This document shows positions 5,989-39,017 of a stretch of 64,000 nucleotides of DNA, piece by piece (position 1 is the first letter of the stretch; each line of letters starts with the position of its first letter). The DNA lies in assembly GCF_008831155.1 (NCBI RefSeq), contig NZ_WBKB01000001.1, forward strand, positions 248,001-312,000. The letters are read 5' to 3'. The notes under the pieces are model-generated. The model was not told the DNA's origin, did no database searches, and worked only from the letters and a program-made list of their open reading frames with translations. Origin of the DNA: Gulosibacter chungangensis (GTDB lineage Bacteria; Actinomycetota; Actinomycetes; Actinomycetales; Microbacteriaceae). A program made the translations under genes and the position numbers.

Positions 5989-5995
5989 AGCCTAA

Positions 5996-17056: not shown

Positions 17057-17094
17057 CTTCTTGGGCTTCGTCACGCTCCATTGAGAAATAAAAC

Positions 17095-17128
17095 GGGGAT
17101 GCGGCCTTCTGCAACAGGCCGCATCCCC
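17095..17128 (+). terminator. Rho-independent terminator of the P450 operon
   Basis: A 12-bp perfect stem (17095-17106 with 17117-17128), a 10-base loop and a following CTCTTTTAT tract lie 38 bp after the reductase stop. Confidence 0.8.
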
Positions 17129-17237
17129 ACTCTTTTATACGCATCCACCAATCGCCTCGCGGACCAGCCGCCAACCCTCGCTGAACAGCAGCCGACCCTC
17201 GCGGTGCTAATTTCGAAGCAGGCACGCGATAGGACGG

Positions 17238-19292: not shown

Positions 19293-19299
19293 GCGCCCG

Positions 19300-19635
19300 C
19301 TAGTCGAGTTTGAATTCTGCGCGACGCCCCTCTGGCACGAGGTCGAGGAAGTCCTCACGGTTCCGGTCGATGGTGTGCAGCACGTAGGGGCAATACGGCA
19401 GGACGCCCAAACCGCGAGCCCGCGCATCCGCCAAAGCCTCGGTGACGAGCAGGCGTGCCAGACCCGGCACCGACTTCGACTTGTCGACCTCCGTGTGGAT
19501 GAGCGCGATGTTTTCTCCACGCAACCGGTAGTCGATGAGCCCTAGTCGATCACTACCAGCCTCAATCACGTAGCGGTTGTTTTCGGCGTCATCGCGAACG
19601 ATCGGGACTTCTCCGTTGACGAGCACTTCACTCAT
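19300..19635 (-). CDS. Short GNAT-type N-acetyltransferase (YjdJ/Gcn5-like)
   Basis: A 111-residue protein of the compact YjdJ-like acetyltransferase group: EVPIVRDDAENNRYVIEAG, RLGLIDYRLRGENIALIHTE, VPGLARLLVTEALADARARG, and LGVLPYCPYVLHTIDRNRE with the conserved Cys/Pro/Tyr. Substrate unknown. AAAGGAGG precedes ATG 19635. It converges with the VanZ fusion gene, leaving 7 bp between the ends. Confidence 0.85.
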   Translation of the reverse strand: MSEVLVNGEVPIVRDDAENNRYVIEAGSDRLGLIDYRLRGENIALIHTEVDKSKSVPGLARLLVTEALADARARGLGVLPYCPYVLHTIDRNREDFLDLVPEGRRAEFKLD

Positions 19636-19686
19636 GCTGTGGCCTCCTTTGGTGCGTGCGAGGCAGGTCGGGTACTGGCGTGTGAG

Positions 19687-19974
19687 TCATGGCGTGACGC
19701 TTTCTGTGGTGGCGTGAATCGGTGCAGCGTCGTAGGTGACCCAGTTCGTGCGGGTGCCGACTTTGTCGTAGAGCGCTTGCTCCTGATGGTTATCGCTTGC
19801 CGTGATGCCACGGATGATCGAGCAGCCCTCCTCGCCCGCGATCTCAGCCACGCGCTGAATCAGCGCCCGCCCCGCGCCACCACCACGCGCGATCAGGGTC
19901 CTCCCTACGGATCACGACGCTGCAGCACATCTTCGTGCGGAATCAAGATTCCAAGTGTCTCGTGCTCTGCCTGA
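19687..19974 (-). pseudogene. Decayed GNAT acetyltransferase
   Basis: The minus strand from about 19887 to 19687 encodes a clear GNAT C-terminal half: RGGGAGRALIQRVAEIAGEE (acetyl-CoA-binding loop) and ASDNHQEQALYDKVGTRTNW. Going upstream, the coding sense continues in another frame (LGILIPHEDVLQRRDP) and hits a stop near 19904. The gene thus has a frameshift or deletion and no proper N-terminus. A sequencing error is the alternative explanation. Confidence 0.55.
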
Positions 19975-20137
19975 TTGGCACATGACAAATTGTGCGAGAT
20001 TCACGTCGAGAGGAAAATCCCGCGCCTGCCGCGAGTAAGCTCTTTTGAGTACAAGCAGAGTGCTCTTAACGCAGCGTGACGAAGTCCTGAACTCCACGCG
20101 AACAACGCAAGACATCTGCCTGAGGAGAAAGACACAA

Positions 20138-21631: not shown

Positions 21632-21921
21632 TCGATTGGATGGCATTCCTGATCGTGTTCGGCACTACGCTGGTCTCAGCGGCAGTGGTCGTTTCACTGT
21701 TCTCGCTGGGCATTCGATTCCTGGCGACTCCGGCACCTAAGGTGGCGCACGCAGACGGCAGCTTCGAGCCGAACGGGCCTTCTCGTGATGACGAAGATGA
21801 CGACATCGATGAAATGGGTCGCCCGCGATGGGCGACGGGCCTTGCCTACCTCTGTTTCGGTCTCTCCGGCGTGTGCGTTCTCATCGGTATCTACCTGATT
21901 GTGCCCGCGCTTCACGGCTAG
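21628..21921 (+). CDS. Small two-helix membrane protein coupled to pit
   Basis: A 97-residue protein with helices at about residues 5-30 and 70-94 and an acidic connecting segment (DDEDDDIDE). It begins with ATG inside the ATGA overlap with the phosphate transporter stop, so the two are translationally coupled. It may be an accessory subunit of the transporter. I do not recognise a named family. Confidence 0.75.
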   Translation: MIDWMAFLIVFGTTLVSAAVVVSLFSLGIRFLATPAPKVAHADGSFEPNGPSRDDEDDDIDEMGRPRWATGLAYLCFGLSGVCVLIGIYLIVPALHG

Positions 21922-21932
21922 TCTGAAGTGCC

Positions 21933-22469
21933 ATGACATGCTTCGCCATCGGCCACTCGACGCGTTCGATCGAGGAGTTCATCGCGCTGTTGCGAGATGC
22001 GTCGGTCACACTCGTGGTCGATGTACGGAAGCTGCCCGGGTCGCGCAAATATCCGCATTTCAATGCGGATGCGCTGGCCGAGTCGCTTTCTGAGGCTGGG
22101 ATTGGCTATGAGCGGTCTGAGGGACTTACCGGCAGGCGCCGAGTGAGTATGATCATTCCCTTCGAGGTCAACGGCTTCTGGCGCAATCGCAGCTTTCACA
22201 ACTACGCCGATCACGCGCTGACCGAAGAATTCGCGGCGGCGATCGAGGAACTCCGCACCGCCGCTTCCGAGCAACATGTCGCGGTCATGTGCTCGGAAGC
22301 GGTCTGGTGGCGCTGTCATCGGCGAATCATCGCCGACCATCTACTGGCCAAAGGCGACCAGGTCATCCACCTCATGGATGCTGGGAAGCAGTCCCCCGCA
22401 TCCCTCACCGAAGGTGCCGTGATCGGCGAGGACGGGAAGGTTCGCTACCCCGCCCAGGCCGACGAGTAA
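21933..22469 (+). CDS. DUF488 family protein
   Basis: A 178-residue protein with all DUF488 marks: FAIGHSTRSIEEFIALL, VDVRKLPGSRKYPHFN, YERSEGLTGRR, FHNYADHA and VMCSEAVWWRCHRRIIADHL. The conserved Cys in MCSE and the preceding basic residues form a presumed but uncharacterised active site. It starts 11 bp after the small membrane protein and is probably in the same transcript. Confidence 0.9.
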   Translation: MTCFAIGHSTRSIEEFIALLRDASVTLVVDVRKLPGSRKYPHFNADALAESLSEAGIGYERSEGLTGRRRVSMIIPFEVNGFWRNRSFHNYADHALTEEFAAAIEELRTAASEQHVAVMCSEAVWWRCHRRIIADHLLAKGDQVIHLMDAGKQSPASLTEGAVIGEDGKVRYPAQADE

Positions 22470-22499
22470 GGGCCCGCACTGAGTCGAGCGCAGGCGCGT

Positions 22500-23114
22500 T
22501 TAGTCGAATTCGGGCGAGGTCGTGCGCGAACGCTTCAGCTCGTAGAAGTACTCGAATGACCCGAGCGTGACGGCGGCGTCGAAGATCTTGCCGGCCTGCT
22601 CGCCCCGTGGAATCCGCGTCATGACCGGGCCGAAGAAAGCCGTGTCGTTGAACGCGACCACGGGCGTGCCGACCTCGTCGCCCACCTTAGAGATACCTTC
22701 CTGGTGCGAGGCGCGCATTTTCTCGTCGAGCTCGTCGGTCTTCGCGGCGTCCAGGATGCTCGCCTCGAGTGAGAGGTCCGCGAGCGCACCGGCGACGGCG
22801 GCTTCAAAGTCCTTTTCGCCTTCGTTGTGGATGCGTGTACCGACAGCCGTGTAGAACTCGCCAAGCTTTTGGTCGCCGTGACGCTCCCACACCTGGGTGG
22901 CGGCGCGAGCGGGCAGCCACGCACGGTCCAAAAGCTTGCGGTAGCCCTCGTCGAGATCGCGGCCCTCATTGAGGACGGACAGCGACATGATGTGCCACTT
23001 CACCTCAATGTCACGCACCTGCTCTACCTCGAGAATCCAGCGCGAGGTGATCCACGCAAACGGGCAGATCGGGTCAAACCAGAAGTCAACGGTCTCGCGG
23101 GTCTGTTCGGTCAT
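22500..23114 (-). CDS. DsbA-like protein, mycothiol-dependent nitroreductase (Rv2466c) family
   Basis: A 204-residue thioredoxin-fold protein with the DsbA helical insertion. The N-terminal [20 protein letters not shown] closely matches the Rv2466c group, which uses mycothiol in redox reactions. Only the first active-site Cys is kept (CPFA rather than CxxC), suggesting a monothiol mechanism. The cis-Pro loop is [17 protein letters not shown] precedes ATG 23114. Confidence 0.85.
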
Positions 23115-23271
23115 GACACTCCTTTAGTCGTTTTGGTTCTGTTGAAAATTTTGGAGCGCTTGAATCTTTCGGCTCCGTGAGATGACAACCTTGCGACGAC
23201 AAACCGTATTCCACGGCGAGCGCTTACCAACTGATTTCTTGGGCGGTGAGGCGCGGAGCAAGTCGGCGAAA

Positions 23272-23925
23272 TCAGTCGCCGAGCCAATACGTGTCAGCAT
23301 CAATCAACCAGTGACTTCGAATCGTCAATGCCCGCTCCAGCCCCGCCAAAACGCTCGCCACTGCGAGCGTGGAGCCCAACCAACCGGGCACTTCAAGCGG
23401 GTTCGTGAAGGTGCCAAACCGCTCCGCAATGAAATCCATTTGCGAGATGAGCTCGATGACCCACGGCAGCAGCAGGACAAGACTGACCAACAGGATGGCG
23501 ATCGCGAGCCAGCCGATAATTCGGCTCGCCACCGGGTGGTTGCGTCCGAATTTCGCGCGCCAAAATTCGGCGGTGCCCGGCATCGGCACGAGTTGCTGTT
23601 CTTGACCGTCTCGCAGCAGGTGGATGCGCGTCATCCCGTAAGTCGAGTCGGCCACCTCGATCTGCCCCTGATGGACCGGGAATTTCACCGGGAGCTTCGC
23701 CCGCAGGTGCTGACTGCCGTCGCGATAGAGCGCACAGCGGCTCTCGAGGTCGAAAAAGTTCACGTCGACGGCGTAACTCCGCGGCACTTCCTTGCCCTGC
23801 GCATCCGGCTCGATGAGCCGAATGCCGAACTGCGTGCGCCAGAGCGCTTGGACTCCACGCACCGGTTTGAGTGCGCTACCGTCACCGGGCTCGATTTTGG
23901 CCGCGTTCTTATCGGCTCGCGTCAT
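23272..23925 (-). CDS. Hypothetical membrane protein
   Basis: A 217-residue protein I do not recognise. Residues 1-130 are soluble and beta-rich (IRLIEPDAQGKEVPRSYAVD). Two helices follow at about residues 137-160 and 182-197. GAAAGGATCC precedes ATG 23925, and coding bias is normal. Neighbouring genes do not reveal a role. Confidence 0.75.
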   Translation of the reverse strand: MTRADKNAAKIEPGDGSALKPVRGVQALWRTQFGIRLIEPDAQGKEVPRSYAVDVNFFDLESRCALYRDGSQHLRAKLPVKFPVHQGQIEVADSTYGMTRIHLLRDGQEQQLVPMPGTAEFWRAKFGRNHPVASRIIGWLAIAILLVSLVLLLPWVIELISQMDFIAERFGTFTNPLEVPGWLGSTLAVASVLAGLERALTIRSHWLIDADTYWLGD

Positions 23926-24003
23926 TGAGGGATCCTTTCGTGGCTCAGTGTCACCGTGCCACAGAATATTTAAAGCCTCCCGCGCTCAGTAACAAGTCCG
24001 CAG

Positions 24004-24798
24004 CTACTTGCTTTCCTTGTGCTCGGATTCGCCGATCTTCCAATAACCGCGGATGTCAATCGCCTGCTTCGCGTGCCCGAGTTCCCGCAGCTGCTTGCGA
24101 ATCGGCAATAGGCTCGTGGCTTCGGATGCAGCCCACAAGAAGGTATTCGCCTCAAGGTTTGGCATCGCCGTTGCGACCGCGTCACCGAGCGTCTGGCCAT
24201 TGGCGCGGTGGAGCCAGCGGAGACTTGCACGCGGATGCACGGGCAACTCTCGCTCTCGGCTCGCCTCTTCGATCAGCACGAAGACATCGAGCGCGGCTTC
24301 GCGCGGTGCTTCCTCCAACCATCGCTCGATCGCGGGAAGTGCCGTCTCATCACCGGCGAGGAGATAGCGGTCATACCCGGTGGGGAACCGTGCAGAGCCG
24401 CGCGGTCCAAGAACTCCGAGAAGATCCCCTGGCTTGGCCGCAATTGCCCAGCGGCCAGCAGGTCCGTGCTCATGCAGCAAGAAGTCGATGGCGAGTTCGG
24501 GCTTTTCGGCGTTGACCCATCGAATCGTGTATTCGCGAAGCTCAACTCCGTCGGGTCGGTTGAGGCCACTTTCGTCGATCGTCGGCATCGTGACCTCGCC
24601 GGTGTCAGCGTTTGGAAGCACGAGTCGCACGTGGTCGGCAGGCGAAAACTGCCCGTAGGGAAGCGTGGCCTCAAGGTCTTCGCCGCCCAGAATAATGCGG
24701 CGCATATCGCTCGAGAGTTCTTCAACCCGCAGCACCGTGAGCAGTCGTGTTTTCAACGGGTACGGGGTTCGTTTAACAGCAAGCGTCGGAGCAGTCAT
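24004..24798 (-). CDS. Siderophore-interacting protein (FAD-binding ferric-siderophore reductase)
   Basis: A 264-residue protein of the ViuB/YqjH family: an N-terminal FAD-binding beta-barrel (SSDMRRIILGGEDL, FSPADHVRLVLP, REYTIRWVN), then a C-terminal NAD(P)H domain (LLAGDETALPAIERWLEEAP) ending in the hallmark IRGYWKIGE. It reduces ferric siderophores in the cytoplasm to release iron. It is divergent from a MarR regulator across about 120 bp with nested palindromes. No convincing iron box was found there. Confidence 0.92.
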   Translation of the reverse strand: MTAPTLAVKRTPYPLKTRLLTVLRVEELSSDMRRIILGGEDLEATLPYGQFSPADHVRLVLPNADTGEVTMPTIDESGLNRPDGVELREYTIRWVNAEKPELAIDFLLHEHGPAGRWAIAAKPGDLLGVLGPRGSARFPTGYDRYLLAGDETALPAIERWLEEAPREAALDVFVLIEEASRERELPVHPRASLRWLHRANGQTLGDAVATAMPNLEANTFLWAASEATSLLPIRKQLRELGHAKQAIDIRGYWKIGESEHKESK

Positions 24799-24872
24799 GG
24801 AGTCCTTTAACGTGGTCGATTGCGCGCTCCAGCCAGACCGGCGAGCTGCGCATCTGGATATCCGTAGGTTAC

Positions 24873-24900
24873 CAAACTATGTTTGAAACAAACAGGTTTG
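24873..24900. promoter_or_regulatory. Candidate MarR operator between divergent genes
   Basis: Alternating CAAAC and GTTTG arms give three overlapping dyads: CAAAC-TAT-GTTTG (24873-24885), TGTTTG-AAA-CAAACA (24880-24894) and CAAAC-AG-GTTTG (24889-24900). Such tandem dyads in a divergent MarR promoter are strong operator candidates. Confidence 0.65.
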
Positions 24901-24919
24901 CCTATTTGCCGAAGGAATT

Positions 24920-25396
24920 ATGAGCCCCGCCGAACACGATCCCGAACACGACACTGCCCGAGAACTGCGCATGTTGCTGGGTCCGTTGCGGCGTGAGCTC
25001 AAGCGCGCAACGCCCCCGCCAGCAGCAGCGGCCAGCCTCACATCGGCACAGGTCGAGCTCCTGCGCGCCGTCCAGCAACACGGGCCGCTCACCACCACGG
25101 AACTCGCCGGACACTTGTCGCTCGCCCGCCCCACGGTCAGTAATCTCGTGAAACAGCTCACGCAGGTCTCCCTGCTCTCTCGCGAGCTCTCCCCCATAGA
25201 TGCTCGCGCGATCCTGATCGGTGTCACGGACGAGGCCCAGGGCATCCTTCGCGAGGCTGGCCGCCAACGGGTTGCCGTCCTACAAAACGCCATCGATAGC
25301 CTCTCGGCCGCCGACCGCCAGACGCTCGACGAGGCGCTGCCCGTGCTGCGCCGCATCCTCGAATCTTTACAGGATCGTGGGGCCCGGCACTATTAG
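24920..25396 (+). CDS. MarR-family transcriptional regulator
   Basis: A 158-residue regulator with a winged HTH at about residues 40-105: LTSAQVELLRAV, GPLTTTELAGHLSLARPTVSNLVKQL, then a wing containing SPIDARAILIGVT. N- and C-terminal dimerisation helices flank it. It is divergent from the siderophore-interacting protein gene, its probable target. GAAGGA precedes ATG 24920. Confidence 0.9.
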   Translation: MSPAEHDPEHDTARELRMLLGPLRRELKRATPPPAAAASLTSAQVELLRAVQQHGPLTTTELAGHLSLARPTVSNLVKQLTQVSLLSRELSPIDARAILIGVTDEAQGILREAGRQRVAVLQNAIDSLSAADRQTLDEALPVLRRILESLQDRGARHY

Positions 25397-25458
25397 CCGC
25401 TTGCGCTGTGCGTCTGCGGGTCGCGAAAACTGACAGGGTTGTGAAGTTAGCTGACTGG

Positions 25459-28400
25459 ATGACGGAATCGCGAGACATGGCAGCGTTCGGGGAGGCGACG
25501 CGCACCTGGTTCTTGGGTGCGTTCGAGCAGCCGACCCGCGCGCAACGCGAGGCCTGGGAAGCGATCGCGACCGGCAGCCACACGCTCGTGGTCGCGCCGA
25601 CCGGCTCTGGCAAGACCCTCGCGGCGTTTCTCTGGGCGCTGGATCGGCTCATCCATGATACTGAGGTGGCGACCGAGCCTCGCAAGCCCGGCACGCGCAT
25701 CCTCTATATCTCGCCGCTGAAGGCGCTCGGGGTCGACGTCGAGCGGAACCTCAACGCACCGCTGGTGGGCATCGACCAGACCGCGAAGCGACTTGGGCTG
25801 CCGGCGAATGCGATCTCGGTCGGGGTCCGCTCGGGCGACACGAAGCCCGCCGAGCGCCGCCGGCTGCAGGCAAACCCGCCGGATGTGCTGATCACCACGC
25901 CCGAGTCGCTCTACCTCATGCTCACGTCCAGCGCCCGCGAGGGACTGCGAGCCGTCGACACCGTGATCGTCGATGAGGTGCACGCCCTCGCCGATTCCAA
26001 ACGAGGGACACACCTCGCGCTCTCGCTCGAACGGCTGGATGCGCTGCTCACCTCGCCCGCGCAACGCATCGGCTTGTCAGCGACGGTGCGGCCGCTCGAG
26101 ACGGTTGCGAAATTCCTCGGCGGCGCGGCTCCTGTGAAGATCGTCGCTCCCCCAAGTGAGAAGGCGTTCGATCTCAAGGTGGTCGTGCCGGTGGAGGATC
26201 TCAGTGATCTCGGTACGGTCGGAGGTCCCGGGCGGTCCGCGCGCGACGAAGGTGCCTCACAAAACCAGCACGCGCAGGACGATGACATTGTGTTCGGCGA
26301 CTCCACCCAGTCCACCGATCCCCGCCACGGCTCGATCTGGCCGCATATTGAAGCGGAGATCGTCGACCGTGTGCTCGAACACCGCTCCACGATCGTGTTC
26401 GTGAATTCCCGGGGCCTTGCGGAACGGCTCACCGCAAACCTCAATGAGGAGTATCGCTCGCGTCTTGCCGAGGCTGCGGCACAGGCGGAATTCGCTGCCG
26501 CCACCGACAGTAACTCCAACGCCGACAGCGCTGCCGCCACCGATAGCCGCGCCACCGCCGATAGCAATTCCGCGAGCGCCGCGTCCCATGGCCCCGAAGC
26601 CAGTCTGCGAGGGGAAGCCAGCCCGCGAAGACACGCCAACCCGCAAACCGACGGCGCGCCGCACGACGAGGACACCCTCGCGCGCACTCACCACGGTTCA
26701 ATGTCGAAGACCACGCGCGCCGCGGTCGAGGAGGCGCTGAAGTCCGGTGAGCTGCGCTGCGTGGTCGCGACCTCGAGCCTGGAACTCGGCATCGACATGG
26801 GCGATGTGGAGCTCGTGATCCAAGTGGAGGCGCCACCTTCGGTCGCCTCGGGGCTGCAGCGGCTCGGACGTGCGGGCCACCAGGTCGGCGGCACTTCGCG
26901 CGGGGTGATGTTGCCGAAGCATCGGGCGGATGTGCTGAATTCGGCGGTGGTCGCGGCAAGAATGCTTTCGGGCACGATCGAGCGCATTGAGCTGATCGAG
27001 AACCCGCTGGATGTGCTGGCTCAGCAGATCATCGCCGCCTCCGCGGTGGATGCCTGGGCGGTGGATGATTGGCTCGCGCTGGCCAGAAAAGCTTCCTCCT
27101 ATCAGCGGCTTTCGCGAGCGCTGCTCGACTCGGTATTGGACCTCCTGGCCGGCCGCTATCCCTCGGATGAGTTCGCACACCTGCGTCCGCGAATCGTTTG
27201 GGATCGTGACGCCGATACCTTTACGGGCCGACCCGGCGCACAGCGACTTGCGGTGACCGGCGGCGGCACCATCCCCGACCGCGGCATGTACGGGGTATTC
27301 ATGTACACCGGTGCCGAGGACGGTCCGGAATCCGAGGACGGCACCACCGCATCCAGCCGCCGCCCCGCGGGTACTCGCGTGGGTGAACTTGACGAGGAAA
27401 TGGTCTACGAATCCCGCGTGGGCGACGTGATCGCACTCGGCTCGACTTCCTGGCGCATCCGCGAAATCGGGCCCGACCGGGTGCGGGTCACGCCCGCGTT
27501 CGGGCAGCCGGGTCGGCTGCCGTTCTGGCACGGCGATTCGATCGGGCGGCCAGCCGAGCTCGGTGCCGCGATTGGCGAGATGAGTCGAGCGATTGCGACG
27601 AAGGATGCGGTACCGGAGGGTCTCGAGGAAGTCCTCGACGAGCATGCGGCCACGAATCTTGTCGCCTATATTCGCGAGCAGGGCGAGGCTACCGGACAGG
27701 TGCCGAGCGACCGGGTGCTGGTGGTGGAGCGTAACCGCGATGAGCTCGGCGACTGGCGCGTAGTGCTGCATTCCCCTTTCGGTCGCCGCGTGCACGCACC
27801 CTGGGCGTTACTAGTGACCGCGCGGGTTCGCGAGCGCTTCGGGATGGAGGGATCGGCCGTCGCGAGTGATGACGGGATCGTGGTGCGCATCCCCGATATT
27901 GATGCCGACCCGCCCGGCGCGGAACTGTTCGTGTTCGAACGCGAAGAGATTAAGCCGACCGTCACTCGCGAGGTGGGCGCATCGGCGCTCTTTGCTGCCC
28001 GGTTCCGCGAGAATGCTGCGCGGGCGCTGCTGCTGCCGCGTCTGCATCCGGGAAAGCGCTCACCACTCTGGCAGCAGCGACTGCGGGCTGCGCAGCTCCT
28101 CGAGGTGGCCCGTCGCTATCCGGAATTTCCGATCATCCTCGAGACCGTGCGTGAGGTGCTCAACGACGTCTACGATCTCGAAGCGTTCACCGAACTGATC
28201 GCCCGCATCGAATCGCGCGAGGTGCGGATCACCGAGGTGGTCACCCCAGAGCCATCGCCGTTCGCACGCAATCTGCTGTTCGGCTACGTCGGGCAGTTTC
28301 TCTATGAGGGAGATCAGCCCCTCGCCGAGCGTCGCGCCGCCGCGCTCAACCTCGACGCGAACCTGCTTTCCGAGCTACTCGGCGCGACTTCGCTGCGGGA

Positions 28401-30417
28401 ACTCCTCGATCAGGATGCGATCGACGACGTGGCAGCGGAACTGCAGAAGCGCGCGCCCGGGTTTCGGGCGCGCGACCTCGAGGGGGTTGCGGACCTGTTG
28501 CGATTGCTCGGGCCACTGAGCGAGACGGAAATTCTCGAGCGGTTTGGGGAGGATGCGGGACTGATGGATTCGGCGGAGTCCGCATCGCCAGAAGGCTCCG
28601 AGGCCAGTGCGAGTGATCCTTCCCGGCTGGCAGAAGTCCAGGCCGCGATGCCGGGCATCGCCCGCCTCGAAGAGGTTCAGGAGACCGTCACGCGTCTCGT
28701 CGACAGCAAGCGCGCCCTACGCCTGCGCATTGCGGGTACTGAGTGTGTGGCCGCGATCGAGGACGCCGCTCGCCTCCGCGATGCCCTCGGCACCCCGATT
28801 CCGATCGGCGTACCCGCGGCCTTCCTCGCGCCCGTTGAAGACCCGCTCGGCGATCTCGTCGCCCGGTTCGCACGCACGAACCCGCCGTTTACCACCGCCG
28901 AGGTCGCTGAACGCCTTGGAATCGGCCAGTCTGTCGCACTCGCTGCCTTGCAACAACTCGAGCTCTCCCACCGGATCGTGCGGGGTGAATTCACGCCTGC
29001 CCGAGTCGGTGAGGAATGGGTCGATGACCGGGTGTTGCGGCGCATCCGGGCCCGCACCCTCGCCAAGCTGCGGCACGAGGTCGAACCGGTTTCACAGGCT
29101 GCCTACGCGAGATTCTTAACCGAGTGGCAGCAGCTCGATGGCGACCTGCGGGGCGTGGATGGTGTATTCACCGTGATCGACCAACTGCAGGGCGCGCAGA
29201 TTCCGGCCTCGGCATGGGAGTCGCTGATCCTGCCCGCTCGGGTGCGCGACTACTCCCCCGGGATGCTCGATGAGCTGATCATTTCGGGCGAGGTTCGCTG
29301 GCACGGGCACAGCGAAATCGGCCGCGCCGACGGGTGGCTGAGCCTGCACCTGAGCGATACCGAGCACCTCACCTTCGAGCGTCCGGAACTGCCCGAGGAT
29401 GCATCCCCACTGGCAAAGCGTGTCGCCGCAGTCCTCGCGCGCGGCGGGGCGATGTTCCTGCCGCAGATCGTGACCGAGCTGACGGTTCAGACTGGCCTGG
29501 GCCCCGCATCCGCGCCGCCCTCACTCGAAGAAATTGCGGATGCGCTGTGGGAGTTGGCCTGGTTCGGAATCGCCTCGAGCGACTCGCTTGTCCCACTGCG
29601 GGCGCTGTTGGCCGGGCAGGTGGGGGCGCGGAGTTCCTCGAGCCGGTCGGCACCTTCGCACCGCACCGCGCGGCAGCCCGCGCGCGGACGCTCATTCCGG
29701 TCGTGGGCTGCCGAACGGAAGGCCGCACAGGTGCCACCTCGGGCAGCTGGTCGTTGGTCGCTAGCGGAATCCTTCGCCGAAGACGCGACTGTGAAAGCGC
29801 AAGCTGGCGCCGAACTGCAGTTGGACCGCTACGGGGTGGTGACTCGTGGTTCCGTGGAGGCCACCGGGATAGAAGGCGGCTTTGCGCTTGCCTACCGAGT
29901 GCTCGCGAAATTTGAGGAGGCCGGTCGCGCACGGCGCGGCTATTTCATCGCCGGACTCGGCGCCGCACAGTTCGCGACGGCCGGGGCGATCGACGCGCTG
30001 CGGCGTGCGGATGACGACCGTTTCGAGGAGAAACCACCGCTTCGAGCCGTCACGCTTGCCGCGACCGATCCGGCAAACCCCTACGGTGCGGCGCTACCCT
30101 GGCCCGAGCATGAGTCCACGCATCGGCCGGGGCGAAAGGCTGGCGGGCTCGTAACGCTCGTGGACGGTGAGCTGATGCTGTACGTGGAGCGCGGCGGGAA
30201 AACTTTGCTGTCATTCCTTGAGTCGGACTCTTTCGAGAACAACCCCGTCGCCCGAGCCGCCGCTGAATCGCTTGCCGAAACGGTGCGCCGGGCACGCATC
30301 CCCAACCTCGTGATCGAGAAAATCAACGGCGCCTATGCTCTCGAGGCGCCACTCGCGAGACTCCTCACCGATGCCGGTTTCGGGCAAATCCCGCGCGGCC
30401 TGCGGATGCGACTCTAA
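25459..30417 (+). CDS. lhr: Lhr-type ATP-dependent DNA helicase
   Basis: A very long superfamily 2 helicase of about 1,652 residues. Walker A is A46-PTGSGK-T53 and the DEVH box is at 172-175. The LSAT motif, GLAERL, HHGSMSK and LQRLGRAGHQVGG follow, then the Lhr winged-helix and core domains and a long C-terminal region shared with actinobacterial Lhr. The family unwinds 3'-tailed DNA and RNA:DNA hybrids and is linked to DNA repair. ATG 25459 gives the family-like MTES start; GTG 25408, GTG 25441 and ATG 25477 are alternatives. A low-complexity Ala/Asp/Ser/Asn insert of about 65 residues (near 345-410) precedes motif IV/V. The Nei gene follows 8 bp later. Confidence 0.93.
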   Translation: MTESRDMAAFGEATRTWFLGAFEQPTRAQREAWEAIATGSHTLVVAPTGSGKTLAAFLWALDRLIHDTEVATEPRKPGTRILYISPLKALGVDVERNLNAPLVGIDQTAKRLGLPANAISVGVRSGDTKPAERRRLQANPPDVLITTPESLYLMLTSSAREGLRAVDTVIVDEVHALADSKRGTHLALSLERLDALLTSPAQRIGLSATVRPLETVAKFLGGAAPVKIVAPPSEKAFDLKVVVPVEDLSDLGTVGGPGRSARDEGASQNQHAQDDDIVFGDSTQSTDPRHGSIWPHIEAEIVDRVLEHRSTIVFVNSRGLAERLTANLNEEYRSRLAEAAAQAEFAAATDSNSNADSAAATDSRATADSNSASAASHGPEASLRGEASPRRHANPQTDGAPHDEDTLARTHHGSMSKTTRAAVEEALKSGELRCVVATSSLELGIDMGDVELVIQVEAPPSVASGLQRLGRAGHQVGGTSRGVMLPKHRADVLNSAVVAARMLSGTIERIELIENPLDVLAQQIIAASAVDAWAVDDWLALARKASSYQRLSRALLDSVLDLLAGRYPSDEFAHLRPRIVWDRDADTFTGRPGAQRLAVTGGGTIPDRGMYGVFMYTGAEDGPESEDGTTASSRRPAGTRVGELDEEMVYESRVGDVIALGSTSWRIREIGPDRVRVTPAFGQPGRLPFWHGDSIGRPAELGAAIGEMSRAIATKDAVPEGLEEVLDEHAATNLVAYIREQGEATGQVPSDRVLVVERNRDELGDWRVVLHSPFGRRVHAPWALLVTARVRERFGMEGSAVASDDGIVVRIPDIDADPPGAELFVFEREEIKPTVTREVGASALFAARFRENAARALLLPRLHPGKRSPLWQQRLRAAQLLEVARRYPEFPIILETVREVLNDVYDLEAFTELIARIESREVRITEVVTPEPSPFARNLLFGYVGQFLYEGDQPLAERRAAALNLDANLLSELLGATSLRELLDQDAIDDVAAELQKRAPGFRARDLEGVADLLRLLGPLSETEILERFGEDAGLMDSAESASPEGSEASASDPSRLAEVQAAMPGIARLEEVQETVTRLVDSKRALRLRIAGTECVAAIEDAARLRDALGTPIPIGVPAAFLAPVEDPLGDLVARFARTNPPFTTAEVAERLGIGQSVALAALQQLELSHRIVRGEFTPARVGEEWVDDRVLRRIRARTLAKLRHEVEPVSQAAYARFLTEWQQLDGDLRGVDGVFTVIDQLQGAQIPASAWESLILPARVRDYSPGMLDELIISGEVRWHGHSEIGRADGWLSLHLSDTEHLTFERPELPEDASPLAKRVAAVLARGGAMFLPQIVTELTVQTGLGPASAPPSLEEIADALWELAWFGIASSDSLVPLRALLAGQVGARSSSSRSAPSHRTARQPARGRSFRSWAAERKAAQVPPRAAGRWSLAESFAEDATVKAQAGAELQLDRYGVVTRGSVEATGIEGGFALAYRVLAKFEEAGRARRGYFIAGLGAAQFATAGAIDALRRADDDRFEEKPPLRAVTLAATDPANPYGAALPWPEHESTHRPGRKAGGLVTLVDGELMLYVERGGKTLLSFLESDSFENNPVARAAAESLAETVRRARIPNLVIEKINGAYALEAPLARLLTDAGFGQIPRGLRMRL

Positions 30418-30425
30418 GGACGACG

Positions 30426-31253
30426 ATGCCAGAGGGAGATTCCGCGTACCGCGCAGCCAAGAACCTGCACCGCTCGCTGACGGGGCGCTCGGTGAACCGC
30501 TTCGAGTTGCGCGTGCCGAAACTCGCGACCGCCTCGCTGCTCGGCGAAGAAATTCGCGGGGTGGATGCGCGGGGCAAGCACGTCCTGCTGCGCATCGGTG
30601 AGTACACGGTGCAGTCTCATTTCGGGATGGACGGGTCTTGGCGCATCGTTCCGCCAGCTTCCGCGGCACGAGCTGCTGGAAGGCGACCACGCCGCGGGCC
30701 GACGATTGCCTGGCCCGCTGCCCACCGCATCCGCGCAATCATCGGTACGGATGCGGCGATCGCCCTGGGCATCGATCTTGCGAAGCTTGATATGTGGCCG
30801 ACAGCCGACGAGGAGGAACACCTCGGCTGGCTTGGTCCCGACCTCCTCGCCGAGACTCCCGATCTTGCCGAAGCGATCCGAAGGATCCAGCAGCAACCCG
30901 ACCGCGAGATCACCGCCGCACTACTCGACCAGCGGAACCTTGCCGGGCTCGGCAATGAGTACGTCACGGAAATGTGTTTTCTGCTGGGTGTGCTGCCGAG
31001 CAGAACGGTGCGTGAATGCGGCGACATTGCGGAATGGGTAAGGCTCGGTCGCAGGCTGCTCCTCGCCAACCGCGACCGCGTCGACCGCACCTTCACCGGT
31101 GACTTGCGTCGGCCGACCTATGTATTCGGCAGGGCGGGTCAGCCGTGTCGCCGCTGCGGCACAATCATTCTCGAGGGCAAGCATGCATCCGGCAGCAAAC
31201 AGCCGGGAGCCACCGTTCGCAACGCGGCTTGGTGTCCCAACTGCCAGTGCTGA
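30426..31253 (+). CDS. nei: Fpg/Nei-family DNA glycosylase (endonuclease VIII-like)
   Basis: A 275-residue base-excision repair enzyme. The N-terminus MPEGDSAYRAA supplies the catalytic Pro2 and Glu3. The conserved Lys is in RGKHVLLR, and the H2TH region contains LLDQRNLAGLGNEY. The C-terminal zinc finger has CRRCG and WCPNCQ. It removes oxidised pyrimidines and nicks the strand. It starts 8 bp after lhr, the same lhr-nei neighbourhood as in mycobacteria, supporting a joint repair role. Confidence 0.93.
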   Translation: MPEGDSAYRAAKNLHRSLTGRSVNRFELRVPKLATASLLGEEIRGVDARGKHVLLRIGEYTVQSHFGMDGSWRIVPPASAARAAGRRPRRGPTIAWPAAHRIRAIIGTDAAIALGIDLAKLDMWPTADEEEHLGWLGPDLLAETPDLAEAIRRIQQQPDREITAALLDQRNLAGLGNEYVTEMCFLLGVLPSRTVRECGDIAEWVRLGRRLLLANRDRVDRTFTGDLRRPTYVFGRAGQPCRRCGTIILEGKHASGSKQPGATVRNAAWCPNCQC

Positions 31254-31330
31254 TCGGCGGGCAGAACGACCAACTGTGACCTGCGGTCGCCACAGGAGAG
31301 ACTCCAGCCGGCACCTTTAGGCTGGGGAGC

Positions 31331-31381
31331 ATGCCTTACCCCGCAGCCGCGCACGCCTCGAGCCCAGCAACCGTCCGATGA
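31331..31381 (+). CDS. Possible 16-codon leader ORF coupled to the esterase gene
   Basis: ATG 31331 is preceded by GGGGAG and encodes MPYPAAAHASSPATVR. Its TGA overlaps the esterase ATG (ATGA). The esterase itself has no visible ribosome binding site, so this mini-ORF may deliver ribosomes to it. Confidence 0.4.
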   Translation: MPYPAAAHASSPATVR

Positions 31382-32352
31382 ACCCGCTCATGAAGGCGGC
31401 CTTGGGACTCTTCGCCGCACCCCGGATCGACATGCGTGAAGACTACGGAAAGGTCCGCCGCGCACAGCGTTGGTTCGCATCCCTCTGGCGACCTGGCCTG
31501 CGAAATTCCTACCGGCAAACCACCGCAACCGTCGGCGACCGCAAAATTCGGGTGCGCATTTTCCAGCCAATCGAACGGCGCGGCGACGACATTCTGCTGT
31601 TCTTCCACGGCGGCGGCTGGGTCACCGGCGACATCGAAACCTACACCACCACCTGCCGGGCGATGGCCGAACTCACCGGCTGCCCCGTGGCCTCGGTGAA
31701 CTACCGGCTTGCGCCTGAGCATCCATACCCCGCGGGGCTCGAAGACTGCTACGGCATCACCAAGCAACTATTGGAGGAGCCGCAGCGGGCCGGCATTTCG
31801 GATGCGCGAAATATTGTCCTGGTCGGGGATTCGGCTGGTGGCAACCTCGCTGCGGCGGTGTCGCTCCGGTTGCGTGATGAGGGCCATGTCGGGGTCACCC
31901 GGCAAATCTTGCTCTATCCGGTCACGCATTGGGATCACGATCCGACCACGTCCCCATTCGATTCGGTGCGCGAATATGGCGAGCATTTGCGGCTTACCAA
32001 TGCCGAGGTGCAGGCATATATGGACCTCTATGTTCCGGATGCGCAGGCCCAGCGCGAGCCCTATGTGTCGCCGCTGATGGCGAAGGATTTTTCTGACCAG
32101 CCACGGACCCTGCTGATTTCGGCAGGGTGGGACTTGCTGCGTGACGAGGGCGAGGCCTACGGCAAGGCGCTGCAGGATGCGGGCAACGAGGTTCAGGTTC
32201 ACCGCGTACCCGAGGCTCTGCACGGGTTCATTCAGCTGCCGCGGTTCACGCGACAGATGCGGGATGCTTACGAGGTCATCAACGCATTCCTCGATGAACC
32301 CGAGCACCGGCACGACGCTGCCAAACAGCCAGAAGCGGGCCCCGGCGCATGA
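31378..32352 (+). CDS. Alpha/beta hydrolase of the hormone-sensitive-lipase (HSL) family
   Basis: A 324-residue esterase. The oxyanion motif HGGGW starts at His77, the nucleophile elbow GDSAGG has Ser152, and the Asp in the SAGWDLLRDEG region and His in LHGFIQLP complete the triad. The family hydrolyses short acyl esters. The stop overlaps the start of the condensation-like gene (ATGA), which in turn overlaps a zinc-ribbon membrane protein. These form a tight three-gene cassette, probably acting on one lipid or ester. No signal peptide is seen, so it is cytoplasmic or membrane-associated. Confidence 0.88.
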   Translation: MNPLMKAALGLFAAPRIDMREDYGKVRRAQRWFASLWRPGLRNSYRQTTATVGDRKIRVRIFQPIERRGDDILLFFHGGGWVTGDIETYTTTCRAMAELTGCPVASVNYRLAPEHPYPAGLEDCYGITKQLLEEPQRAGISDARNIVLVGDSAGGNLAAAVSLRLRDEGHVGVTRQILLYPVTHWDHDPTTSPFDSVREYGEHLRLTNAEVQAYMDLYVPDAQAQREPYVSPLMAKDFSDQPRTLLISAGWDLLRDEGEAYGKALQDAGNEVQVHRVPEALHGFIQLPRFTRQMRDAYEVINAFLDEPEHRHDAAKQPEAGPGA

Positions 32353-33785
32353 CCGATGGGGCACCTACGCGACGGAATTGGGTGCGGCTCGACAACGCAT
32401 CCAATATCTTTCTGGCAGCCCGCAGCACCACCGACCCGAAGGTTTTCCGGATGAGTGTGGAGGTCGATCACGAGGTTGACCCCATGTTGCTGCAAGCCGC
32501 ACTCGATGAGACCTACGATCGTTTTCCGCTCTTTCATGCCGTGTTGCGGCGCGGAATCTTTTGGTATTACCTGCAAGACAGCGATCTTCGGCCCACCGTC
32601 GCGGAGGACGATCAGTACACCTGCTTCCCGATCTATCAGACCGACCGCCGGAATCTCTTGTTCCGCATCCTCTATTACCGGCGCCGTATCATCCTGGAGA
32701 TCTTTCACGCGCTCTCGGACGGCACCGGGGCGCTGTGGTTCGTCTCGGACCTGGTGACCGCCTATTTGCGGCTGAAATATCCAGACGAAGCACCGTCCGA
32801 GGTCAGCAATGCGGATGCGCCGCTTACTGAGCCGGAGGAGTCGCTGGCACAGACTCGTGGTCTCGTGCCGGATAGTTTTAGTCACCATTTCCGTCAGCAT
32901 CGGAAGCAAGATCATCCAACCGCGGATTTCGATCACGTTGCAGCTGCGGCTACTGCTGAAACCGAAGCTGTGTCGGAAGCTGCGAAGGCACCGGTTGGTT
33001 CGGATTCCCGGTTGCGAGCTCTACTGCGCAGACCCGAGCAGAAGGTGTATCGGGTTCGAGGAGCTCGAACGCCGGATAACCGCGCGCGGGCTGTGGAGCT
33101 CACGGTCAACGCGAAGGCTGCGCTTGGGTTGGCCCGTGCCGAAGGGGTGTCGTTGACGACCTACCTCACCGCGCTGTTCTTCGAATCGATTCGCCGCTCG
33201 GCGGGTGACCTGGGCGATGCGCCCACAATGTCAGCTTCGATTCCGGTGAATCTGCGGCAGTTCTTCCCTTCCACCTCGGCCCGAAATTTTTTCGCGACCG
33301 TCCACGTCGAACACACGTATGGGGAGGGCTCCGACGATTTGGGATCGATCGCTCGAAATCTCGAGGAAGATTTCCGCCCGAAGGCGACTCCCGAGGCACT
33401 GGAGCAGAAACTTCGCCAGCTGATCCGGCTCGAGCGGCATCAGGTCATCCGTATTATTCCGCGGCCGTTCAAGGATGTGATTCTCCGGCTCCTCAATTGG
33501 GGTAATAACCGCGGTCTCACCGTCGCGATTTCAAACCTCGGGCGTGTGAGCCTTCCAGAGCCGGCGGATAGTCACGTCGATCGGATGTATTTCCATGTCT
33601 CCGCAGTTCGACCACAGTTCTGTGCGATGAGTCACGGAAACCAGCTCACAATTAGCTTTACTTCGCCCTTCGTCGAGACCGGGCATATTCAGGAATTTGC
33701 ACGACACCTCACGGAGCACGGCGTTGAGGTTTGTGTTGCCGCAGCCGCCGTTACCGAGGAAGAGATCGCGGAGCTTTCTTCATGA
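32349..33785 (+). CDS. Condensation/alcohol acetyltransferase-like protein
   Basis: A 478-residue protein of the chloramphenicol-acetyltransferase-like condensation fold. The catalytic HxxxDG motif is H120-ALSD-G125, and a C-terminal half carries MSASIPVNLRQFFPS and ISNLGRVSLPEP, the counterpart of the DFG-side structural motif. Such proteins move acyl groups between alcohols, thioesters or glycolipids. A variable Ala/Glu-rich linker lies near residues 155-230. It is joined to the esterase and the next gene by 4-bp overlaps. The acceptor is unknown. Confidence 0.75.
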   Translation: MTDGAPTRRNWVRLDNASNIFLAARSTTDPKVFRMSVEVDHEVDPMLLQAALDETYDRFPLFHAVLRRGIFWYYLQDSDLRPTVAEDDQYTCFPIYQTDRRNLLFRILYYRRRIILEIFHALSDGTGALWFVSDLVTAYLRLKYPDEAPSEVSNADAPLTEPEESLAQTRGLVPDSFSHHFRQHRKQDHPTADFDHVAAAATAETEAVSEAAKAPVGSDSRLRALLRRPEQKVYRVRGARTPDNRARAVELTVNAKAALGLARAEGVSLTTYLTALFFESIRRSAGDLGDAPTMSASIPVNLRQFFPSTSARNFFATVHVEHTYGEGSDDLGSIARNLEEDFRPKATPEALEQKLRQLIRLERHQVIRIIPRPFKDVILRLLNWGNNRGLTVAISNLGRVSLPEPADSHVDRMYFHVSAVRPQFCAMSHGNQLTISFTSPFVETGHIQEFARHLTEHGVEVCVAAAAVTEEEIAELSS

Positions 33786-34438
33786 ACGGTTGCGAGGCCT
33801 GCAAGGTCACCATCGAAGGTGCTTGGATGCGCTGCCCGCTGTGCGGAGCATCCACCACGGGTACGGCGACGACGAGTCCTTTGCCTGCCGTGCCGCTCAA
33901 GTTTTCGCGGCGTCGATTGTTGACGGTGCTCGCCTTTAGTTCGTTGGGGCTGGTGGTCGGGTCCTTCGCTGTGCAGCTGTTTTTTGGGCACGACGGTGTT
34001 GGCGTTGTCCGATCGATTTGGCTGGGTGTGATGGCGATGTGGCTGGTTGTGCTCACGGCCGTTCGTAAGCGTCGCAATGTGGCGAAGAGCACGGTGTATC
34101 TCGTGCTGATCGTGGGCTTGATTTGTGTGTATTGGGACTATCTCACCGGCTGGAACGCCTGGAGCCTGACGTATGCGGTGCCCATCATGAGTGCTTCGGC
34201 GGTTGTGGGGCTATTGATCGCTGTTCGCCTGATGCGAATGGAACTCGGCGAGTATCTGGTTTATAGCGGGGTGACCGCACTGCTCGGGCTGCTGCCGATT
34301 CTTTTTCTGGTGTTTGGTTGGGTCACGAACCCGGTGCCGTCAATCATTTGCGTAGTGCTGAGCGCGATTATCTTGGTGCTGCAGTTGGTTCGAATCCGCT
34401 CAGTTGGTCACGAGCTCGGGAAACGCTTCCACCTCTAG
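33782..34438 (+). CDS. Zinc-ribbon membrane protein (DUF6320-like)
   Basis: A 218-residue protein with an N-terminal zinc ribbon (CEACKVTIEGAWMRCPLCG, two CxxC pairs) followed by about six membrane helices and a short basic tail. It begins within the stop of the acyltransferase-like gene (ATGA). This is the membrane component of the cassette. The DUF6320 assignment rests on the ribbon-plus-helices layout and neighbourhood, not on a search. Confidence 0.7.
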   Translation: MNGCEACKVTIEGAWMRCPLCGASTTGTATTSPLPAVPLKFSRRRLLTVLAFSSLGLVVGSFAVQLFFGHDGVGVVRSIWLGVMAMWLVVLTAVRKRRNVAKSTVYLVLIVGLICVYWDYLTGWNAWSLTYAVPIMSASAVVGLLIAVRLMRMELGEYLVYSGVTALLGLLPILFLVFGWVTNPVPSIICVVLSAIILVLQLVRIRSVGHELGKRFHL

Positions 34439-34466
34439 GTGAGACCAGCCTCAATGCGCATGTAAT

Positions 34467-34503
34467 CCTTTGGTTGACAGATCATGTCAACCAAAGGTTT
34501 ACT
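34467..34503 (+). promoter_or_regulatory. Perfect palindromic operator overlapping a promoter
   Basis: A perfect 13-bp inverted repeat (34467-34479 and 34485-34497) surrounds GATCA. The left arm contains a consensus -35 TTGACA (34474-34479), and a -10-like TTTACT (34498-34503) follows 18 bp later. The predicted start of transcription falls at the ATG 34510, implying a leaderless mRNA under repressor control. Confidence 0.65.
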
Positions 34504-34509
34504 TATTGC

Positions 34510-35076
34510 ATGAAAGAAATCCAACAAGCCCAGCAGGCGCTTGGGGATGCCAAAGCGAACCTCAAGGCGACTGTCCAACGAGCCAGACGAGACGGACACA
34601 CGTGGGCCGAGATCGGCACCGCGCTCAACATGACCCGACAGGCCGCGTTCAAGCGATTCGGCGAAGTTACCAACCCCGCAACCGGCAAAATCATCAAGGG
34701 AGCACTCATGTCCATCGAACAGATCACTAAGCTCACCGAACGGGTCTTTGAACTCATCAGCGCAGGCAAGTACGACGAACTTGAACCGCTCATCCACCCT
34801 GACGTGCGCGAGGAACTGCCAGCGTCACTCATTGCCGAAACTTGGGCGCGCGTCCTCGCGGAAGTCGGCGCGAAAGAATCCCTGTCTGACTCGCACGTCG
34901 CGCTACCAGCGGGCGAGCGCATCCTCGAAGACACGCAACTCATCGGCACCGTGGTCGGCGTTACGACCATCAACTGCGAGGCGGGCGAAGTAATGGGACG
35001 CGTGGCCGTGGACGATCAGCTGCGCATCGTGGGACTACTGCTCGTGAGCCCCGAACACACGCCGCTCCCCTTCTAG
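34510..35076 (+). CDS. HTH protein with C-terminal DUF3887-like domain
   Basis: A 188-residue two-part protein. Residues 1-60 hold an HTH of the type RARRDGHTWAEIGTALNMTR then QAAFKRFG, frequent in actinobacterial small regulators. Residues 67-188 resemble DUF3887 (MSIEQITKLTERVFELISAG, VAVDDQLRIVGLLLVSPEHT). A strong internal site, AAGGGAG five bases before ATG 34708 (Met67), could yield the second domain alone. The gene lies behind a perfect operator and is probably autoregulated. Function unknown. Confidence 0.8.
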   Translation: MKEIQQAQQALGDAKANLKATVQRARRDGHTWAEIGTALNMTRQAAFKRFGEVTNPATGKIIKGALMSIEQITKLTERVFELISAGKYDELEPLIHPDVREELPASLIAETWARVLAEVGAKESLSDSHVALPAGERILEDTQLIGTVVGVTTINCEAGEVMGRVAVDDQLRIVGLLLVSPEHTPLPF

Positions 35077-37365: not shown

Positions 37366-37446
37366 CTAGTCCTCGCAAAGCGGGATGCCCACACGTTCGG
37401 CTCTGAGCCGGAGCGTGCGGATCGCCTCGAGGTCTTCGATCGCCAC
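37366..37446 (-). CDS. Possible 26-residue small protein after the GMC gene
   Basis: GTG 37446 overlaps the last base of the GMC stop (TAGTG) and opens a frame for MAIEDLEAIRTLRLRAERVG and six more residues, ending at TAG. It would form one charged helix. The 1-base overlap and strand suggest coupling, but length gives little statistical support. Confidence 0.35.
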   Translation of the reverse strand: MAIEDLEAIRTLRLRAERVGIPLCED

Positions 37447-39017
37447 TACGCTGTCACCTCTGCCTTGGCTTGCTCCACCTTGCTCGGATCGAGCAGCCAT
37501 TCGGCAAGGCGCTCGCCGATCATGTACGAGGTCGTGTTGGTGAGCCCGGTTGTAACGTTCACCATCACCGAGGCATCCGCGACATAGAGCCCGTCGACGC
37601 CGTGGACGTTGAGGTACTGATCGACCACCGCCTGCTCATCGCCCGCCGGCCCCATGCGTGCCGTCCCAGCGGCGTGCAGGGAGGTCGATGACATGCCGCG
37701 AATGTATGCCTCGAGCTTCTCATCGTCCCTGATCGTGTCTTCATCGAGGAAACAAATCTCATCGATTTCTTCCCGCAGTGGCGAGGAATTGGCCAGCTCC
37801 CAGCAGAAGCGGACTGCTTCTTTGAGTCGTTCCATGTCACTTGGATGCGAGAGGAAGTTGACGTGCAGCTCCGGCTGGATATGCGGGTCACCAGAACTGA
37901 GCGTGATCCATCCGACGGAGCGCGGTTTGGCGAGCAGATTGTTCATCATGAGCGCCTTCTTGCCCTTGGTTTCGGCTGGGATGTTCATGGTGGCCGGATC
38001 GAGGACTGCGCCGAAAGTCATCATGTCGTTGAAGAGATTGCCGGTCGAAGTGTTGTAGCTACACATTGCCCGCACGCCGATCTTGTCGGTCGGTTCGCTC
38101 AGCAGCACGACGAATGGTGCGAAGGGGTGGTCCTGGAAGTTCTTCCCCACAGCTTCATTTATGTGGACGGGCTCGATGTCGAATTTCTTGAGCACTTCTT
38201 CCGGACCAATGCCCGAGAGCATCAAGAGGTGCGGCGTGTGCATAGCGCCGCCGCAGAGGACGACACGGTCAGCGTAGATCTCTTCGATTTCGCCGTTGTG
38301 CTCGACCTCGACGCCGACGGCACGCTTACCTTCAAAGAGGACTCGACGGGCGAGCGTGTCAGCCTTGATCGTCAGATTGGGGCGCTTTCGCGCTTCCGCG
38401 AGGTAGGTGATGAGGCTCCCCGCGCGCAATTCTTCCGGGCCCTCGAGATTTCGAGGAGTCGGCCCCACGCCGCTGACAGAATCGGCATTAAAGTCTTCGA
38501 CTCGCGGGAAGCCTCGCTCGACCAGTGCCTCAACGAGAGCGCGGGTACCGGCAGACCAATCCTCTTCAAAGTGTCGTTTGATCGTGATCGGCCCGTCAGA
38601 ACCGTGTCCGGGGCGGTCACCAAAGTCCTGGTCGTTTTCGAGTTTCACAAAATATGGCCGCGTTTTCTCATATGACCACTCGGGGTTGCCTGCCTCGACC
38701 CAGGTGTCAAAGTCCTCGCGAGCACCGTGAACGGCAATCGCCGCGTTTACCGACGAAGAACCCCCAACAACCCGACCACGAGGATACGGCATCGCTTCAC
38801 GTGCTTCTGGCGGCTCAATAAAGTAGGCCTTCAGCCCCCAGTCGTGCTCGCTAACGCTCATCTCCCGCGCGTCGCGGATATCGTCTGGGATGGCCGCGCC
38901 GTCCGGGTAGTCAGGACCGGCCTCGATCAAAACCACTTCTTCTTCGGGCGATTCGCTCAGCCGTGAGGCAAGCACTCCACCACCGCTACCGGCACCAATA
39001 ATTATCGTCTTCGTCAT
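37446..39017 (-). CDS. GMC-family FAD oxidoreductase (choline dehydrogenase-like)
   Basis: A 523-residue flavoenzyme: N-terminal GAGSGGGVLASRLSE (FAD), PYPRGRVVGGSSSVNAAI, VVLCGGAMHTPHLLMLSGIG (GMC signature 2), and the C-terminal catalytic region with HAAGTARMG and TTGLTNTTSYMIGERLAEWL. The family oxidises alcohols such as choline, sugars or sterols. It stands alone, without a betaine aldehyde dehydrogenase nearby, so the substrate is open. The start is ATG 39017. Confidence 0.9.
   Translation of the reverse strand: MTKTIIIGAGSGGGVLASRLSESPEEEVVLIEAGPDYPDGAAIPDDIRDAREMSVSEHDWGLKAYFIEPPEAREAMPYPRGRVVGGSSSVNAAIAVHGAREDFDTWVEAGNPEWSYEKTRPYFVKLENDQDFGDRPGHGSDGPITIKRHFEEDWSAGTRALVEALVERGFPRVEDFNADSVSGVGPTPRNLEGPEELRAGSLITYLAEARKRPNLTIKADTLARRVLFEGKRAVGVEVEHNGEIEEIYADRVVLCGGAMHTPHLLMLSGIGPEEVLKKFDIEPVHINEAVGKNFQDHPFAPFVVLLSEPTDKIGVRAMCSYNTSTGNLFNDMMTFGAVLDPATMNIPAETKGKKALMMNNLLAKPRSVGWITLSSGDPHIQPELHVNFLSHPSDMERLKEAVRFCWELANSSPLREEIDEICFLDEDTIRDDEKLEAYIRGMSSTSLHAAGTARMGPAGDEQAVVDQYLNVHGVDGLYVADASVMVNVTTGLTNTTSYMIGERLAEWLLDPSKVEQAKAEVTA

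Follow-up and report, generated by a model that had tools for sequence, protein, structure and literature searches.

A 64,000-nucleotide stretch of the Gulosibacter chungangensis genome (contig NZ_WBKB01000001.1, positions 248,001 to 312,000 of the forward strand; hereafter the window) contains three tightly joined genes on its + strand, between positions 31378 and 34438. Gene 1 (31378-32352, 324 aa) encodes a hormone-sensitive lipase (HSL)-type esterase, gene 2 (32349-33785, 478 aa) an acyltransferase-like protein predicted to have the chloramphenicol acetyltransferase (CAT) fold, and gene 3 (33782-34438, 218 aa counted from its ATG) a membrane protein of the DUF6320 family with a zinc ribbon at its N-terminus. 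An initial annotation of the window had proposed three open reading frames (ORFs) here, overlapping at ATGA, and had read them as an HSL-type esterase, a CAT-fold acyltransferase-like protein and a membrane protein with a zinc ribbon. Its coordinates proved exact. We confirmed ATGA at both the esterase-transferase and the transferase-DUF6320 junctions in the window sequence, and all three identifications were upheld by the analyses described below.

The Abhydrolase_3 profile (PF07859) matched gene 1 with 225.9 bits (cut-off 25), and the protein carries the motifs HGGGW and GDSAGG. Its closest solved relative is 1jji (E 7.4e-48). In the alignment of the two, HGGG, S152 and H282 of the esterase coincide with their counterparts and D252 falls on the first Asp of the 1jji motif DPLRDEG. 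Solely on the basis of this alignment, we take D252 to be the catalytic acid. The profile match, the HGGG and GDSAG motifs and the Ser-Asp-His set together identify gene 1, as judged from its sequence, as an HSL-type esterase. Across 43 aligned sets of trio proteins (defined below), HGGG, S152 (codon at 31831-31833, + strand), D256 and H282 are kept in 43/43, and D252 in 39/43. Cys replaces D252 in four distant loci (L068, L069, L071 and L073) and, in a separate alignment, in a fifth (L070); a sixth (L072) retains Asp. The motif, D(L/P)LxDE in the other esterases, is CPLRDE in these five, which keep the Ser and the His. The Say1_Mug180 profile (PF10340) also matched the window esterase (23.7 bits, cut-off 21), over profile positions 119-222 of 374, a stretch that Abhydrolase_3 fits far better. 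At E <= 0.01 it matched 22 of the 28 rows of A3, the alignment of esterase relatives; like the corresponding alignments for the transferase (A1, 42 rows) and DUF6320 (A2, 39 rows), A3 is a chosen subset. A named drug hydrolase was ruled out as the identity of gene 1: its scores of 191.2 bits with the chloramphenicol hydrolase model NF033149 and 263 bits with the LipP1 family NF058653 lie far under the respective cut-offs of 500 and 350.

Gene 2 carries the motif FHALSDGTG, with the codons of H120-A-L-S-D124-G125 at 32706-32723 (+). H120, D124 and G125, as well as S395 and G398, are kept in 43/43 aligned sets. At the sequence level, a profile of the transferase family reached CAT-superfamily chains weakly (best E 0.0084). 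The PapA_C (PF16911) and AATase (PF07247) profiles, which match the window protein weakly, matched 23/42 and 14/42 rows of A1 at E <= 0.01, the best PapA_C match being 7.6e-13. The transferase of Anaerotruncus colihominis exceeded the AATase cut-off (27.6 vs 22 bits). The CAT fold was clear in an AlphaFold2 model built from 38 sequences (predicted local distance difference test, pLDDT, 75.1; predicted template modelling score, pTM, 0.76); the structure alignments of this study combined the window protein with 37 (A4) or 39 (A5) proteins from the 45 loci described below. Among the matches listed by fold searches, including Foldseek, were the dehydratase AzeD (Z 31.1), PapA5 (24.9), the 15-O-acetyltransferase TRI3 (22.7), the acetyltransferase AmAT7-3 (22.6), WS/DGAT (22.1) and a MEL acyltransferase (21.9). 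The 50 matches listed spanned Z 20.6-31.1 over 315-375 aligned residues, and most of those named, besides AzeD, are acyl- or peptidyl-transfer enzymes. The HxxxDG motif and the modelled fold together place gene 2 in the CAT-fold superfamily, and acyl transfer is the most likely activity of the protein. Since the closest solved fold, AzeD, is titled a dehydratase, the fold does not prove acyl transfer. The initial description of the protein as condensation-like was borne out for the fold and no further. Condensation domains of non-ribosomal peptide synthetases carry the motif HHxxxDG, whereas gene 2 has a single His (FHALSDG) and no PF00668 match at E <= 1, so that a domain of this kind was rejected. 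No such synthetase domain was found in the seven neighbouring proteins scanned.

Gene 3 is, by sequence, a clear member of the DUF6320 family: the profile PF19845 matched it with 143.9 bits (cut-off 29.9) and matched 39/39 rows of A2 at E <= 0.01. The protein begins with a CxxC...CPLC ribbon, the codons of C4, C7, C18 and C21 lying at 33791-33844 (+). Cys 18 and Cys 21 are present in 43/43 aligned sets, and Cys 4 and Cys 7 in 42/43. A low-confidence model (pLDDT 71.2, pTM 0.51) shows short N-terminal strands followed by six long helices, predicted to lie in the membrane. To orient the helices we counted Lys and Arg in the loops of 43 sequences, with each loop widened four residues into the adjoining helices and ribbon residues 1-21 excluded. 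The Lys+Arg fraction was 0.207 in loops placed inside vs 0.051 in loops placed outside. The contrast was uneven, the first outside loop (0.115) being near two of the inside loops (0.139 and 0.137). Because Lys and Arg are richer in the inside loops, albeit unevenly, both ends of the protein and the zinc ribbon are probably, but not certainly, cytosolic.

To determine how often the three genes occur together, we searched contigs of GTDB genomes with the window DUF6320 protein and collected 45 loci, a sample biased towards close relatives of the query. Their titles name 15 actinobacterial genera: Microlunatus, Microbacterium, Leucobacter, Brevibacterium, Rothia, Gulosibacter, Propionibacterium, Agrococcus, Sediminivirga, Yaniella, Acidipropionibacterium, Brachybacterium, Tessaracoccus, Kocuria and Citricoccus. 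All three genes were present in order in 43/45 loci, two of these 43 esterases being clipped by a contig end, and the transferase adjoined DUF6320 in 45/45, its frame being broken in L032. A -4 overlap with a standard start codon joined esterase and transferase at 41 of 43 assessable junctions (exceptions L019 and L032), and transferase and DUF6320 at 43 of 44 (exception L025; L031 was not assessable). The initial annotation had suspected that such trios recur in Gram-positive genomes. This neighbourhood survey confirms the suspicion: besides these 43/45 loci, the trio turned up in more remote Actinomycetota and on a plasmid of Anaerotruncus (see below). Because the trio recurs in this way, the possibility that it is not conserved elsewhere, which would have spoken against the proposal, falls away. 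The adjacency thus appears to recur more than chance would allow. When the ORFs of 59 loci were clustered, only the three trio families and ORFs lying antisense to them were near-universal. A larger operon was rejected on these grounds, and the trio seems to form a cassette complete in itself. One ORF cluster with members anywhere in 20 of the 59 loci resembles, by eye, ATP-binding cassette transporter ATPases. Another genome of the window's genus (G003) has two copies of the trio (L063 and L064) about 1 Mb apart; in each, the transferase and DUF6320 share 64-66% identity with their window counterparts.

We then compared pairwise protein distances among the three families. Incomplete sets were left out, as were L019 (odd start), L025 (fusion) and L032 (broken frame), giving the 43 sets used above; L017 and L065, from the same contig region, were both kept. 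Transferase and DUF6320 distances correlated with r 0.979 over 43 sets and 0.800 over the 39 actinomycete sets, which include the window. Correlations with the esterase were lower, at 0.93-0.94 and 0.54, respectively. In 500 label shuffles, the maximum r was 0.65 for the 43 sets and 0.32 for the 39 sets. The common ancestry of the hosts adds to every one of these values. The esterase slot is also where gene content varies. In L009 (Microlunatus parietis), a short-chain dehydrogenase/reductase (5608-6513 of the locus, +; PF00106, 127.1 bits) lies directly before the transferase, and in L055 a GDSL hydrolase occupies the slot (PF13472, 57.7 bits). The upstream ORF of L045 encodes a PF03601 protein that is probably unrelated. 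From the distance correlations and the replacements in the esterase slot we conclude that transferase and DUF6320 form the core unit, as read from these sequences, and that a hydrolase is their usual companion.

Less biased genome samples gave the same pairing. DUF6320 scored over the cut-off in 14/398 genomes of the window's family and in 4/11 of its genus. A transferase profile search of a 299-genome draw of the family, scoring five candidates per genome, matched nine genomes, all among the 14 with DUF6320, and the two genes were adjacent by coordinates in 9/9. Overall, the transferase was found in 13 of these 14 genomes; G690, which is over the DUF6320 cut-off, stands outside that count. 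A 296-genome sample of the phylum contained seven genomes with DUF6320 over the cut-off and eight with the transferase. Seven of these eight carry DUF6320, and the eighth (G230, L100) has, directly behind the transferase, a shortened ORF that covers the ribbon and the first helices before reaching a stop. No DUF6320 was found in 14 control genomes. Matches below the cut-off were seen in G046, G235, G353, G444, G605 and G683; in G046, examination of the 4.4 kb contig revealed no transferase and no esterase.

Six distant loci from the phylum sample, which appear by inference only to be Coriobacteriia-like, extend the trio further. Five (L068-L071 and L073) hold the complete trio, and in L072 the esterase is accompanied by a fused transferase-DUF6320 frame. 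Their esterase-transferase junctions overlap by 28 bases in L068, L069, L071, L072 and L073 and are separated by a 6-base gap in L070. In the L072 fusion (552-3032, -), on a draft contig, the transferase frame runs directly into the DUF6320 helices and the zinc ribbon is missing. This single contig would fit the pattern expected if the ribbon serves as a docking part. The L072 genome is of the same genus as G230, where the truncated ribbon ORF stands instead of a fusion. We do not regard fusion as firm proof of contact between the two proteins, as the other example, L025, is a metagenome-assembled genome with a frameshift-like transferase tail and L072 is a draft contig without the ribbon; the two are suggestive. 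Outside the Actinomycetota, the trio lies on the Anaerotruncus colihominis plasmid NZ_CP094683.1 (L054), followed by a gene of the diacylglycerol kinase family (PF00781, TIGR00147) that stands beside the trio at this locus alone. Two plasmid records were the only Bacillota loci found, the genome collection having been scanned with the window's protein, and two IMG/VR scans for more confirmed no relative. The sole match in a phage collection was MT835641.1 (L077), an unverified GenBank record named 'Bacteriophage sp.', in which 16263-34925 carries, by our reading of the genes, the trio together with an ORF resembling arginyl-tRNA synthetase and another Abhydrolase_3 esterase; the esterase of its trio is divided between two reading frames. 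By its ORFs the record resembles an actinobacterial chromosome, and a phage origin of the trio was rejected.

In the window, the trio is preceded by an endonuclease VIII/Fpg-type glycosylase gene (30426-31253) that ends 124 bases before it. Just 3' of the trio, at 34510-35076 (+), lies a small protein with weak helix-turn-helix and DUF3887 matches, possibly a regulator. Further downstream, at 37446-39017 (-), is a GMC oxidoreductase that scored 350.8 bits with the mycofactocin dehydrogenase MftG model (cut-off 387.45) and 358.6 with the choline dehydrogenase model (cut-off 605).

PapA5 and WS/DGAT act on lipophilic acceptors and carry an HxxxD motif. The solved structures of both (1q9j and 6chj) share the CAT fold with the modelled window transferase, at 13-14% identity in the structural alignments and with the window protein under the PapA_C cut-off. 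The nearest published experiment found is on Clo1313_1074 (WP_003519433.1) of Clostridium thermocellum. This 50.4 kDa AATase-like alcohol acetyltransferase, for which TRI3 (3FOT) served as the template, shares an operon with an esterase/lipase and acetylated 2-phenylethanol (PMC8112048). The likeness lies in the combination of an AATase-like enzyme with an operon esterase/lipase, and was drawn from description rather than from sequence. The initial annotation knew of no described pathway with this set of genes. That is nearly right: the word DUF6320 occurs in no paper of the literature searched, which leaves out most subscription papers, but an alcohol acetyltransferase from an operon with an esterase/lipase has been described and assayed in C. 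thermocellum (PMC8112048). Beyond that operon, no description of the trio was found in the same literature. As far as searched, the trio is thus an undescribed, conserved set that combines known enzyme folds with DUF6320, a family tied here to a transferase and an esterase. The functional parallel comes from yeast, where acetylation by Atf2 prepares sterols for secretion and Say1 deacetylates the ones to be retained (PMC4076087). Like the trio as we read it, that cycle pairs a transferase for lipophilic alcohols with a deacetylase. Unlike the trio, whose membrane part is a separate protein, Say1 is described there as bearing its own membrane segment (PMC4076087), and the window transferase is below the AATase cut-off.

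Collectively, these results fit the initial suggestion that the three proteins could form an ester at the membrane, remodel it or move it. We propose that the trio is one operon and functional unit in which a lipophilic alcohol is reversibly O-acylated at the cytosolic face of the membrane, with DUF6320 as tether or conduit, a proposal that we hold tentatively and at slightly less than an even chance. With its FHxxxDG histidine acting as the base, the CAT-fold enzyme would most likely acylate a lipophilic or aromatic alcohol at its hydroxyl; the group moved is, we guess, acetyl or some other short acyl delivered by CoA. The HSL-type esterase would take off the same acyl group, and the pair would therefore set the balance between ester and alcohol, while DUF6320 would provide the placement at the membrane. 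The proposal builds on the gene order, overlaps, recurrence and conserved catalytic residues observed and on a computed fold and topology; from these we infer the acyl transfer, the acceptor class, the reversible cycle and the tethering. Several results weigh against it. The window transferase is under the cut-offs of both PapA_C (19.9 vs 30) and AATase (15.1 vs 22), and AzeD surpasses PapA5 as its closest solved fold. The esterase co-varies least with the other two genes, is missing in 2/45 loci (L009 and L045), and has Cys at the D252 position in 5/6 distant loci. The DUF6320 model found no PDB match at E <= 0.001, which excludes nothing because the model is weak. The fused frames are both from draft assemblies (L025 and L072) and could be artefacts, and the lipid kinase was observed at one locus. 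Finally, Clo1313_1074, likened to the window protein by description, is a lead and no test, and it was negative on linear C2-C10 alcohols (PMC8112048).

Other readings were considered. The unit might remodel membrane lipids, with the transferase adding long-chain acyl groups to glycerolipids or glycolipids in the way that PapA5 or WS/DGAT enzymes acylate their own acceptors, the esterase acting as a lipase of the same pool and DUF6320 giving access to the bilayer. The PapA_C matches of more than half of the A1 relatives, the fold matches to PapA5, WS/DGAT and the MEL acyltransferase, the membrane partner in the trio and the YegS/DAGK-type lipid kinase after the Anaerotruncus trio are all consistent with this. 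However, that kinase is found at one locus only, the trio has no recurrent lipid gene as a neighbour in actinomycete loci, and the one assayed operon-linked enzyme in print, linked to the window protein by description only, took acetyl-CoA and 2-phenylethanol (PMC8112048). We regard lipid remodelling as possible but unlikely. The trio could also be a widespread bacterial counterpart of Atf2/Say1 in one operon: the transferase would mark lipophilic alcohols by O-acylation at the membrane, DUF6320 would receive the ester and export it through its body of six helices, and the esterase, translated together with them, would rescue the compounds to be kept. We consider this decidedly unlikely.

Known modifying enzymes exist among both CAT-fold enzymes and HSL esterases, and the trio may instead serve detoxification, the transferase O-acylating a toxic alcohol or antibiotic, foreign or self-made, DUF6320 aiding its exit and the esterase reversing or recycling the reaction. 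The patchy presence of the genes in genus and family would suit such a role. Yet the trio has no recurrent neighbour for resistance or biosynthesis, the chloramphenicol hydrolase model was missed by a wide margin, and an esterase from the same operon would undo the protection unless it were selective. In favour of this role, sterol acetylation by Atf2 for secretion is itself a detoxification step (PMC4076087). Overall, we consider it very doubtful for the trio. Gene 2 could also have another CAT-fold activity, for example that of a dehydratase or cyclising enzyme whose product the esterase trims. AzeD stands well over the next match in Z and the window protein passes no family cut-off, but the complete conservation of HxxxDG, the acyl- or peptidyl-transfer activities of most other named fold matches and the Anaerotruncus relative over the AATase cut-off make it highly improbable.

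The trio links DUF6320, a membrane family without an assigned function, to defined enzyme chemistry, in a compact, testable unit that occurs in Clostridia as well as across Actinomycetes and more remote Actinomycetota. Were the proposed cycle correct, it would reveal how bacteria acylate lipophilic alcohols reversibly at their membrane, a matter that bears on ester production, lipid remodelling and tolerance of alcohols and steroids. Should export of the Atf2/Say1 kind prove true instead, it would give PF19845 its first function.

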